Positions 8,732 through 30,395 of a stretch of DNA of 37,185 nt are shown here, one piece after another. Every line of letters begins with the position of its first letter. Within the stretch, counting starts at the first letter, position 1. The stretch comes from Clostridia bacterium (GTDB lineage Bacteria > Bacillota > Clostridia > Christensenellales > Borkfalkiaceae): contig JAJPXK010000089.1 in NCBI GenBank assembly GCA_021205485.1, forward strand, positions 1-37,185. The letters run 5' to 3'. Position numbers and translations under genes: made by a program. Under the pieces are notes generated by a model. That model was not told the DNA's origin. It made no database searches and saw nothing but the letters and a program-made list of their open reading frames with translations.

Positions 8732-8784
8732 TAGTCTTTTCGCAAACAATCACTTTGCACGACTGTTTTTTTAGTCGCAAAAGT

Positions 8785-8895
8785 CCCTTGCATTCCCCCT
8801 GCGGGGGAAGGGGGGACCGCTCGCGGTGGATGAGGGGATAATAAAGCCCTCATCAGTCAACTTCGTTGACAGCTTCTCCCCGAGGGAAGCCGATA
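8785..8895. repeat. Palindromic dispersed repeat (between rpsQ and rplN)
   Basis: attccccctgcgggggaaggggggaccgctcgcggtggatgagggg...cccctcatcagtcaacttcgttgacagcttctccccgaggg-like unit. Confidence 0.85.
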
Positions 8896-9018
8896 ATGCG
8901 GCAAATTTGCCGGACAGTCCTCTGCAAAAGTTACCGACGATTATAGTAAAACATGATATTTTGGCTATATATCGGGGGTAACGGTTGTTGTAAGTAACAT
9001 AAATCAAGGAGAATTTAT

Positions 9019-16732: not shown

Positions 16733-16954
16733 ATGTCGAAAAACGACCTTATTGAAGCCGAGGGAAAGGTAATAGAGTGCCTTCCTAACGCCAATTTCAA
16801 AGTCCAGTTGGCTAACGGCCACGTGATTGACGCCTATATTTCGGGCAAGCTCAGAATGAATTACATTCGCATCATAGAAGGCGATACCGTAAAGATTGAA
16901 ATGAGCCCTTACGACCTGAAAAGGGGCAGAATCACCTGGCGCAGCAAATCGTAA
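16733..16954 (+). CDS. infA: Translation initiation factor IF-1
   Basis: [70 protein letters not shown]. Confidence 0.98.
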
Positions 16955-17058
16955 GAATCCGTTTATCGCGTAATTGCAACAGCAATTCGCGGCTTATTCT
17001 AAAAATAATAATGAGTTTTTGGCGTCACTGCGTTATGCCAAAAACCCCTAAATTTTAG

Positions 17059-17213
17059 GTAAAAGGGTGAATTTTTCGTATTATATAAATACGTACGCCC
17101 TTAAAAATACAAAAAAGAGGGAAAATAACAATCGGAGTAAAACGGAGATTGGTTGTTCCCTGAAAATCACGGCAAATGTTTTTGCACAGCAATGCAAAAA
17201 GATTTGCGTGAAT
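17059..17213 (+). ncRNA. Structured element copy A (three stem-loops) in the rpmJ leader
   Basis: ggtaaaagggtgaatttttcgtattatataaatacgtacgcccttaaaaatac...; near match to the reverse complement of 30127-30282, with compensatory changes in the stems. Confidence 0.65.
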
Positions 17214-17233: not shown

Positions 17234-17350
17234 ATGAAAGTAAGACCTTCAGTAAAGCCTATGTGCGACAAATGTAAGATAATTAAAAGAAACGGCAAAG
17301 TAATGGTTATCTGTTCCAAAAACAAGAGCCACAAACAGCGCCAGGGCTGA
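17234..17350 (+). CDS. rpmJ: 50S ribosomal protein L36
   Basis: [38 protein letters not shown]; start refined from ORF track 17153. Confidence 0.97.
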
Positions 17351-21849: not shown

Positions 21850-22135
21850 GCTCCCCTATTAGGGGAGCTGTCGCGTTAGTGACTGAGGGGTTCTTGTAAC
21901 GCCAAAAGCCTCCGTCATTGCGAGCGGTTTCTACCGCGTGGCAATCCCGCGAGTACTCGCGATCGGCAGGCAGGTCGGCCGAAAAGTTGTTTAAAAATAA
22001 TAATGTTTTGATGGAATGAAAGCGGTCGGAAGGAGATTCTTCGGCTTCGTTTTGCATCATATAATCTGTAAACCCCTCAGGCCTTACGGCCGGCTCTACT
22101 GTGTATGCTACGCTACCCTAATAGGGGAGCCCTTT
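21850..22135. repeat. Palindromic dispersed repeat interrupted by a ~167-bp second repeat
   Basis: ggctcccctattaggggagctgtcgcgttagtgactgaggggttcttgtaa / (insert) / tgtaaacccctcaggccttacggccggctctactgtgtatgctacgctaccctaataggggagcc. Confidence 0.75.
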
Positions 22136-28298: not shown

Positions 28299-30122
28299 AT
28301 GTCAGAGAAAAAGAAAAAAACAAAAACAAAACGCTCGAGCATAGGCGGGCAGGCGGTGCTCGAAGGGGTTATGATGATGGGGTCAACCTGTATGGCTACG
28401 GCCGTACGCGACCCCGAAGGCGAAATCCAGGTAGAGGCCAGACGCATCAACAGGTCGCCTAAAACGGCGAAGGCCTGCAAAATCCCCTTTGTAAGAGGAA
28501 TCGTAAACATGTTCGGCAGCCTTGTAAGGGGCACGGGCGCTCTTATGCGTTCGGCCGAGGTTTACGGCGACGAAGAGGAGGCGGGCAACCTTGAAAAAGT
28601 GCTCGCGGAAAAATTCAAAATAAATCTTATGAGCGTGGTCAGCGTCGTGTCCGTCTGTTTAGGCGTCGCGCTGGCCGTGGCCCTGTTCCTTGTTTTGCCT
28701 AACCTTATCGTAAGCGGGCTTAAATCGCTTTTCCCTTCCCTTACGGGCTCTGTATGGGAATATATAATTTTAGGCGTCATCAAACTTGTCATATACTTTG
28801 CGTACCTCGGAATTATCCTTTTATTAAAGGATATCCGCAGGCTGTATATGTACCACGGCGCCGAACACAAGACCATTACCTGCTACGAAAAGGGGCTTGA
28901 GCTTACCCCCGAAAACGCGAGGGGCTGTTCCCGTCTGCATTCCCGCTGCGGAACGTCCTTCCTGTTTATCGTGCTCGCGATAAACATTTTAATAATTTCG
29001 CTTGTAAACTGGGGCCTCGGCGTGGCTGAAATAGAGAGCAATCTTCTGCAGTTTCTTGCGAAATTAGGTATAGAGATTGTGCTGTTGCCTGTAATTACAG
29101 GCGTCTCTTACGAGATTTTAAAATTTTTGGCAAAGTTTGACAACTGGTTTGTAAATATCTTCAAGGCCCCCGGTTACTTTATGCAGAAGGTGTTCACCAC
29201 AAGGGAACCTACCGACGATATGCTTGAAGTCGCCATCGCGGCGTTCAAAAAGGCGCTTGAGATGGACGCCGACCCCGACATGGAGGAGACGGAGTTTGTC
29301 ACGGGCGGAATGCTTACGCAAAAACTCAAGGCCACAAAGGAAAAATTTGCGAAAAAGGACATAGACGAAAGCGACGCCGAGTGGATTTACTCGCTCGTTC
29401 TCGATATACCCCGCAGCGAACTGACCTCTGAACGGATCATATCCCCCGCCGAAGTCAAGGCTGTAAAAGAGATTGTGGATAAACGGCTTACGGGCAGGCC
29501 GCTGTGGTATATAATAGGCGACGTAGACTTCTGCGGCTGTAAAATAAAGGTGGACGAGAGGGTGCTTATTCCCCGCCCCGAAACCGAACAGCTCGCCGAT
29601 ATCGCCATAAAGACGGTGGAAGAGGGCGACAAAGTGCTTGATATGTGCACGGGAAGCGGCTGCATAGCCATAGCTATGGCCAAGGGCTGCGCCGGCAAGC
29701 ACATTTCGGTCACCGCGGCGGACGTGTCTGACGCGGCTCTGATGGTCGCCAGGCAAAACGCTGTTGATAACGAGGCTGTGGTACACTTTGTACAGTCAGA
29801 CTTGTTTGACGGCGTCCGCGGCAGGTTCAACGTAATAGTGTGCAATCCCCCGTATATAAAAAGTTCGGATATCCATACGCTGCAGAAAGAGGTGAGGGAC
29901 TACGAGCCCCGCATAGCCCTTGACGGCGGCGACGACGGGCTGGATATTTACAGGAGCATAGCCAAGGTTATAAACAGGTATATCGCCCGCGGAGGCATGC
30001 TTATACTTGAATGCGGTGAGGGCCAGGCGGACGAGATTTTAAAGATATTCTCCCGCCGCGACTACGCGATGGTGATAAAGGACCTCTACGGCGTAGACAG
30101 GTTTTTGAAGATAGCATTTTAA
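28299..30122 (+). CDS. prmC: DUF1385 membrane protein fused to peptide chain release factor N5-glutamine methyltransferase (PrmC)
   Basis: N-terminal DUF1385 (IGGQAVLEGVMMMG; MYHGAEHKTITCYEKG; RLHSRCGTSFLFIV) and C-terminal PrmC (LIPRPETEQLAD; VLDMCTGSGCIAIAMA; VIVCNPPYI) in one uninterrupted 607-aa ORF. Confidence 0.93.
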   Translation: MSEKKKKTKTKRSSIGGQAVLEGVMMMGSTCMATAVRDPEGEIQVEARRINRSPKTAKACKIPFVRGIVNMFGSLVRGTGALMRSAEVYGDEEEAGNLEKVLAEKFKINLMSVVSVVSVCLGVALAVALFLVLPNLIVSGLKSLFPSLTGSVWEYIILGVIKLVIYFAYLGIILLLKDIRRLYMYHGAEHKTITCYEKGLELTPENARGCSRLHSRCGTSFLFIVLAINILIISLVNWGLGVAEIESNLLQFLAKLGIEIVLLPVITGVSYEILKFLAKFDNWFVNIFKAPGYFMQKVFTTREPTDDMLEVAIAAFKKALEMDADPDMEETEFVTGGMLTQKLKATKEKFAKKDIDESDAEWIYSLVLDIPRSELTSERIISPAEVKAVKEIVDKRLTGRPLWYIIGDVDFCGCKIKVDERVLIPRPETEQLADIAIKTVEEGDKVLDMCTGSGCIAIAMAKGCAGKHISVTAADVSDAALMVARQNAVDNEAVVHFVQSDLFDGVRGRFNVIVCNPPYIKSSDIHTLQKEVRDYEPRIALDGGDDGLDIYRSIAKVINRYIARGGMLILECGEGQADEILKIFSRRDYAMVIKDLYGVDRFLKIAF

Positions 30123-30126
30123 AGGT

Positions 30127-30282
30127 TCACGAATTTGTTTTTCGGTTGCTGCCGAAAAACAAATTCCGTGATTTGAGGGGAAAACCATTCTCGGTACAAA
30201 GTACCTGCGGATGTTTTTCCCCTCTTTTTCGTATTTTTAAGGGCGTACGTATTATATAATACGAAAAATTCACCCTTTTACC
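30127..30282 (-). ncRNA. Structured element copy B (three stem-loops), opposite orientation to copy A
   Basis: Reverse complement ggtaaaagggtgaatttttcgtattatataatacgtacgcccttaaaaatacgaaaaagagggg... matches 17059-17213; hairpins with compensatory changes. Confidence 0.65.
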
Positions 30283-30305
30283 TTCTTTATGTAAATAACC
30301 ATAAC

Positions 30306-30395
30306 TTGCCTTCCCCCTCGGGGGAAGGTGTTTTTATTTCCGCAAAACGGAATAAAAACGGATGAGGGGTTTTTACGCCTCATCGCGCGCGAGCC
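30306..30395. repeat. Partial palindromic repeat unit upstream of prfA
   Basis: ccttccccctcgggggaagg...cggatgaggggtttttacgcctcatc. Confidence 0.6.

Follow-up and report, generated by a model that had tools for sequence, protein, structure and literature searches.

A probable new family of mosaic palindromic DNA repeats interspersed between genes in a genus of uncultured Clostridia

In a 37,185-nucleotide stretch of a Clostridia bacterium genome (the window, which here means the whole stretch analysed), an earlier note made from the letters alone had described two divergent copies of an element of about 155 nt, with three stem-loops in which bases had changed and pairing had been kept. The question raised by this locus is what such an element is and whether its folding matters as RNA or as DNA. 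The proposed match was borne out by a search of the genome containing the window, in which positions 17059-17213 (+ strand, copy A) aligned end to end with the reverse complement of 30127-30282 (- strand, copy B) with 79% identity and an E value of 2e-30. The two copies are thus on opposite strands, and their folds are very stable (z -6.7 and -8.4 against 200 dinucleotide-preserving shuffles). No Rfam covariance model scored above its gathering threshold anywhere in the window, and a permissive Rfam scan of the element and eight loci with diverse copies gave only sub-threshold matches (e.g. mir-2778 at 19 of 86 bits). This agrees with the earlier view that the element is undescribed, and we found no description of the repeat family in the open-access literature.

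Both copies are real, but the extent of about 155 nt was too short and many copies in the genome had been missed. The alignment of copies shows that the whole of copy A corresponds to 16967-17211, running 5' through a linker and two further hairpins to about 16967. The parts of both copies, including matches to R1, a covariance model of the element core (positive at E <= 0.01), and their neighbours are as follows.

16733..16954, + strand: infA, the neighbour upstream of copy A
16967..16991, + strand: H1, which opens copy A on its 5' side as a short hairpin resembling P5 (CGCG.AATTGC.aaca.GCAATT.CGCG)
16995..17014, + strand: A+T-rich 5' linker TTCTAAAAATAATAATGA, corresponding to TTTTAAAATAATTAACG in relatives
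17015..17045, + strand: P2 hairpin, GTTTTTGGC...GCCAAAAAC, with paired changes among copies
17054..17213, + strand: core of copy A, R1 match of 168.9 bits
17072..17116, + strand: P3 hairpin with the conserved loop TATATAAT..GT..GCCCTTAA, arms 17072-17081 with 17107-17116
17117..17161, + strand: P4 hairpin, the variable domain (GAGGG...CAATC...GATTG...CCCTG)
17167..17211, + strand: P5, the 3' terminal hairpin (TCACG...CAGCAA...CGTGA) with a one-base bulge, also found alone
17234..17350, + strand: rpmJ, the neighbour downstream of copy A, with its start codon 22 nt past P5
28299..30122, + strand: ORF with a C-terminal PrmC-like part (named from its sequence), left neighbour of copy B and convergent with the element
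30125..30286, - strand: core of copy B, R1 match of 162.4 bits, without recognisable H1 or P2
30127..30171, - strand: P5 of copy B, which faces the prmC-like ORF from 4 nt beyond its stop codon
30225..30268, - strand: P3 of copy B

The ORF at 28299-30122 (607 aa) seems to combine part of a membrane protein, DUF1385-like by eye, with a PrmC-like methyltransferase, and could be a genuine fusion.

Not all the stems first proposed withstood comparison. The supposedly conserved stem 1 (AAGGGTG/CGCCCTT) was only 69% paired in ten copies, with no both-sided pair change, against 99% for P3, which replaces it; a pseudoknot reading of stem 1 fared no better (4.65 bp versus 4.64 bp for mismatched partners). 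P3 was also 99% paired in 42 copies, and in the ten copies 5 of its 10 pairs had changed on both sides; some copies carry the allele TTTTTCGTAT/ATACGAAAAA, for instance, where others have TTGCGGGCAT/ATGCCCGCAA. Its loop (window 17082-17106) is the best-conserved part of the element genus-wide; the same stretch includes a perfect TATAAT, with no -35 box at the proper distance. The former stem 2, now P4, is a real hairpin that is swapped for a longer domain in some copies (long forms in loci L007 and L043), and the former stem 3, now P5, shows, as described, a CAGCAA loop and a one-base bulge in both copies, with the TGCA/CGG swaps of pairs between them. H1 was present at the matching place in L002, L003, L006 and L017 and diverged in L004, with paired changes across copies. 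On inspection of aligned copies, the hairpin foot reads AAAATCACG...CGTGAAC.

The 155-base element and its partner are two copies of many in the genome and not a single non-coding RNA locus. When this genome (2.0 Mb) and related Clostridia were searched with the covariance model, as the earlier note had suggested, R1 matched at about 19 places here, copies A and B among them; fragments of the element occur in the genome as well. Full-length copies occupy the infA-rpmJ (copy A), rpsL-rpsG, rpmG-secE and dnaK-dnaJ intervals, the region upstream of rpsL and further places, the gene names being read from the sequences. Within the genus, 41 of the 61 genomes sampled were positive, with a maximum of 36 copies, these counts being lower bounds. 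In the order, 121 genomes yielded two positives, this genome and a congener; the 119 others gave no convincing R1 match, apart from a single borderline one (E 0.001). When 85,462 species genomes were scanned for the P3-loop pattern, it turned up in 53 stretches, every one from a genome with the label of uncultured Clostridia or of a similar metagenome-assembled genome (one "uncultured bacterium", several "Clostridiales"); viral contigs had no match to this pattern, and no homologues of the element were found in phage and plasmid collections.

Comparison of these copies disclosed a modular architecture. The unit of the relatives measures about 190-200 bp, with TTTTAAAATAATTAACG at one end and CGTGAAC at the other, and at least three interiors occur between the constant 5' linker/P2 and 3' P5 ends: a minimal one, in which P5 follows a P2-like hairpin whose internal loop is GCAAG...GTTAAGC; the P3-P4 core, as in the window; and a long domain with GAGATGAG...GGTG(A/C)CCGA. 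Among related genomes, variants with the core and minimal variants have the 5' linker in common. Units in variable combination, as in BOX-type modularity, are found here as core, long, minimal and solo-P5 forms. In relatives the linker and P5 ends are no inverted repeats of one another; copies of this genome that have H1 carry similar short sequences at their start and end. The long copies hold at the P4 position a second structured domain, ATTTCTC[stem]GAGATGAG[stem]GGTG(A/C)CCGA[stem]GAGA, which in relatives also occurs separately from the core. Its sites are:

L007, 1370-1590, - strand: GAGATGAG domain
L043, - strand: GAGATGAG domain
L083, 10-175: GAGATGAG domain
L052, 850-990, - strand: GAGATGAG domain
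L053, 1-120, - strand: GAGATGAG domain

A tandem form was seen in L103 (1109-1830), where four element units with a period of 196 adjoin a gene for a CobW-like protein. Of these units, 1 and 3 have one P3 in common and 2 and 4 another, and P5 is common to 1, 2 and 4. The array is not a case of CRISPR-like variation but a dimer that has been duplicated, with hairpins exchanged between units.

The copies lie close to gene boundaries. By simple open-frame gene calls, 21 of the 38 copies with a located P5 faced a stop codon (median 5 nt), 10 lay just before a start and 7 were elsewhere. Most copies in this genome are in sense orientation upstream of genes, which hinted at an orientation rule that fails genus-wide, where both orientations are common. 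No gene recurred beside the copies among the 341 ORFs of the 53 loci.

Presence and absence at orthologous sites were also found. In the nearest relative (G068), copies of the element precede metK and occupy a second site; both places are empty in this genome, and other element sites are common to the two. The copies have probably spread as mobile DNA, although G068 is only about 80-85% identical and some absences could also be losses. The infA-rpmJ spacer measures 279 nt here and 20-46 nt in many relatives; in several species P5 lies just ahead of the rpmJ ribosome-binding site with quite different sequence upstream, and in G068 it is there without the core. P5 can persist, then, while the remaining element is gained or lost.

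Other sequences were also noticed. Both genomes have ahead of metK a conserved leader with a terminator (L134, about 1560-1700, and L118), which is probably a SAM-sensing riboswitch, and in G068 the repeat sits between this terminator and the metK ribosome-binding site. A third kind of interspersed repeat, marked by GATGAGG and by palindromes of CCTTCCCCC/GGGGGAAGG, occupies window positions 8780-8900 and 30308-30385; the former is in the rpsQ-rplN spacer, where G068 has an element copy instead. A dispersed repeat unrelated to the element (..GATTGCCACG..ATCTAAGCC..) is found at window 21930-22002 (- strand) and at more than 15 other places of the genome.

On the basis of repetition, modularity, solo P5 hairpins, tandem arrays, presence/absence, pairing-preserving stems, conserved loops and gene-end positions, we believe that the element is probably a new, genus-specific family of non-autonomous, mosaic, interspersed palindromic DNA repeats of the BOX/REP kind. 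In such a family, the constant A+T-rich 5' linker with P2 and the 3' P5 would frame a variable interior, and copies would spread as mobile DNA, their hairpins forming in single-stranded or extruded DNA and being recognised by a trans-acting enzyme. Perfect complementarity of the stem arms would probably be maintained in the DNA itself, through hairpin selection, through template switching in replication, or through both. Where copies are co-transcribed (A and others between operon genes), the mRNA will contain hairpins too, a probable side effect.

That pairing is kept through paired changes, as claimed from two copies, is upheld in many more homologues. In an alignment of 42 R1 matches (A5), 97% of the cells were paired and 34 of 39 pairs had both-sided changes, with a covariation score of 0.593 against 0.146 in shuffled alignments; when partners were slid, the score did not exceed 0.13. 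The earlier note would have been contradicted by a known Rfam family or by homologues without covariation, and neither was encountered. Because the 42-match alignment leans toward the model, we used copies picked by the P3 loop alone as a pairing-independent set. In 49 of these 55 all ten P3 pairs were formed, versus 2.6% when arms were exchanged between copies, the copies being related (23 distinct 5' arms) and the counts those of non-independent events. The P3 pairs in this set were 535 Watson-Crick, no G-T and two A-C, and those of the whole core in the 42-sequence alignment were 1306 Watson-Crick, 19 G-T and 12 A-C.

Such a pattern fits selection on DNA hairpins, and also a rewriting of arms by template switching, a process described for RNA hairpins and reported to generate stems and keep them paired without passing through G-U (PMC8794818). 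Moreover, whole-stem alleles recur and are combined differently among copies and within the tandem array, and these recurrent alleles, including the swapped hairpins of L103, point to an exchange of whole hairpins. Paired changes could be mainly a mutational by-product of template switching or hairpin exchange, in a fold of little function. However, the loops, the position of the bulge and the P2-P3-P5 order are conserved over dozens of species-level genomes, so that neutral rewriting alone is insufficient and we regard this explanation as unlikely.

A structured RNA, whether a cis-acting leader, an intercistronic element or a processed small RNA that protects or regulates the downstream mRNA, would account for the strong covariation and the conserved loops, for the many copies of this genome in sense just upstream of housekeeping genes such as rpmJ, rpsL, secE and dnaJ, and for the recurrence of P5 ahead of rpmJ in several species. 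Constraint at the RNA level is expected to tolerate G-U pairs and to be strand-asymmetric. This is what SRP RNA, our control from 24 genomes of the same genus, displayed as to G-U, with 94 such pairs in 744 cells (13%) and one A-C, and 22 of 168 at its variable pairs. In contrast, G-U was almost absent from the element (Fisher p < 1e-14 for the difference, a value that assumes independence) and G-T was about equal to A-C, where a structured RNA would have the former in excess. Since the stems are neither G-U-tolerant nor strand-asymmetric, the DNA side of the earlier suggestion of selection on an "RNA or single-stranded DNA hairpin" is favoured and its RNA side disfavoured; Watson-Crick-only change points to DNA hairpins more than to folded RNA. 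In addition, P5 faces stops twice as often as it precedes starts, both orientations are common, the adjoining genes are unrelated and Rfam has no match, all of which makes a structured RNA improbable.

If the element is a mobile palindromic DNA repeat, a mobilising enzyme is to be sought, and no matching autonomous partner was found when genomes of the genus were screened for Y1, integron integrase and RVT_1. A Y1 (RAYT-type) transposase reading hairpins at both ends, as for an IS200/IS605-type relative or a REP, would be in keeping with hairpins near both ends, with an A+T-rich 5' junction and with the lack of clear terminal inverted repeats or target-site duplication; as to the latter, in 16 copies, the ends of which are known only to within a few bases, words shared between the flanks were no longer than in shuffled pairs. 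Nevertheless, Y1_Tnp was detected in only 19 of the 61 genomes, was rarer in element-rich ones and was missing in 12 of the 16 with at least 10 copies. Similar hairpins were not seen at the ends of this genome's own IS200-like Y1, and on inspection of aligned copies the foot of the hairpin bore neither a GTAG nor a CGTC tag. Mobilisation by Y1 is therefore disfavoured, and we hold it to be very unlikely. Reverse transcriptase, as in a group II intron or retron derivative, is not associated either, since RVT_1 is missing in many element-rich genomes (G002, G006, G016, G030, G034, G067, G076 and G078). An integron-like attC site, that is, a folded single-strand recombination site directly after a stop codon, would suit the bulged hairpins with freely varying stems and the P5 hairpins 1-7 nt from stops in many copies, but it is hardly credible given that many copies instead precede start codons, that no GTTRRRY core sites were seen by eye and that an integron integrase above the TIGR02249 cut-off was present in 0 of 61 genomes, the weak matches being ordinary tyrosine recombinases.

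Mobilisation may depend on a common function of the host or of an IS, on an enzyme since lost, or on one outside the sample. More tentatively, the palindromic repeats could represent a new class of bacterial mobile DNA, with ends read as single-strand hairpins by structure and loop and not by stem sequence, moved by a recombinase other than a Y1 transposase, integron integrase or reverse transcriptase and delivered beside gene boundaries. In either case, this is an abundant, uncatalogued repeat family within ribosomal and other essential operons of a large genus of uncultured gut bacteria. Its textbook covariation, nearly free of G-U intermediates, means that RNA-discovery pipelines can mistake DNA palindromes for structured RNAs, and it provides a natural system for testing how the complementarity of palindrome arms is maintained.

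Among known systems, the element shares conserved structure and covariation with the structured non-coding RNAs of Rfam, but it is G-U-poor and matches no family. With non-autonomous IS200/IS605-type elements it shares hairpins near the ends, no target duplication and no clear terminal inverted repeats, but most element-rich genomes lack the Y1 transposase. REP/BIME/REPIN and the GTAG/CGTC families are likewise short palindromes found solo, in tandem and in mosaics near gene ends, the CGTC families also lacking a dedicated transposase (PMC3733652, PMC3116915), whereas the element is larger, multi-hairpin, without a RAYT partner and with TCACG...CGTGA ends. The BOX/RUP/SPRITE repeats of Streptococcus pneumoniae are, like it, small, modular, strongly folded, gene-adjacent, lineage-restricted and enzyme-less, and SPRITE also lies near gene 3' ends (PMC3049150). 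For BOX, both target-site duplications and terminal inverted repeats are on record (PMC3049150), neither of which is clearly seen in the element, whose stems vary freely around conserved loops and whose sequence and lineage set it apart by description. What is unusual is the presence of conserved loops on freely changing, Watson-Crick-only stems together with a missing mobiliser. By the features tested, the element is outside the families of BOX/RUP/SPRITE and the REP-type palindromes, which are nevertheless what it functions most like.
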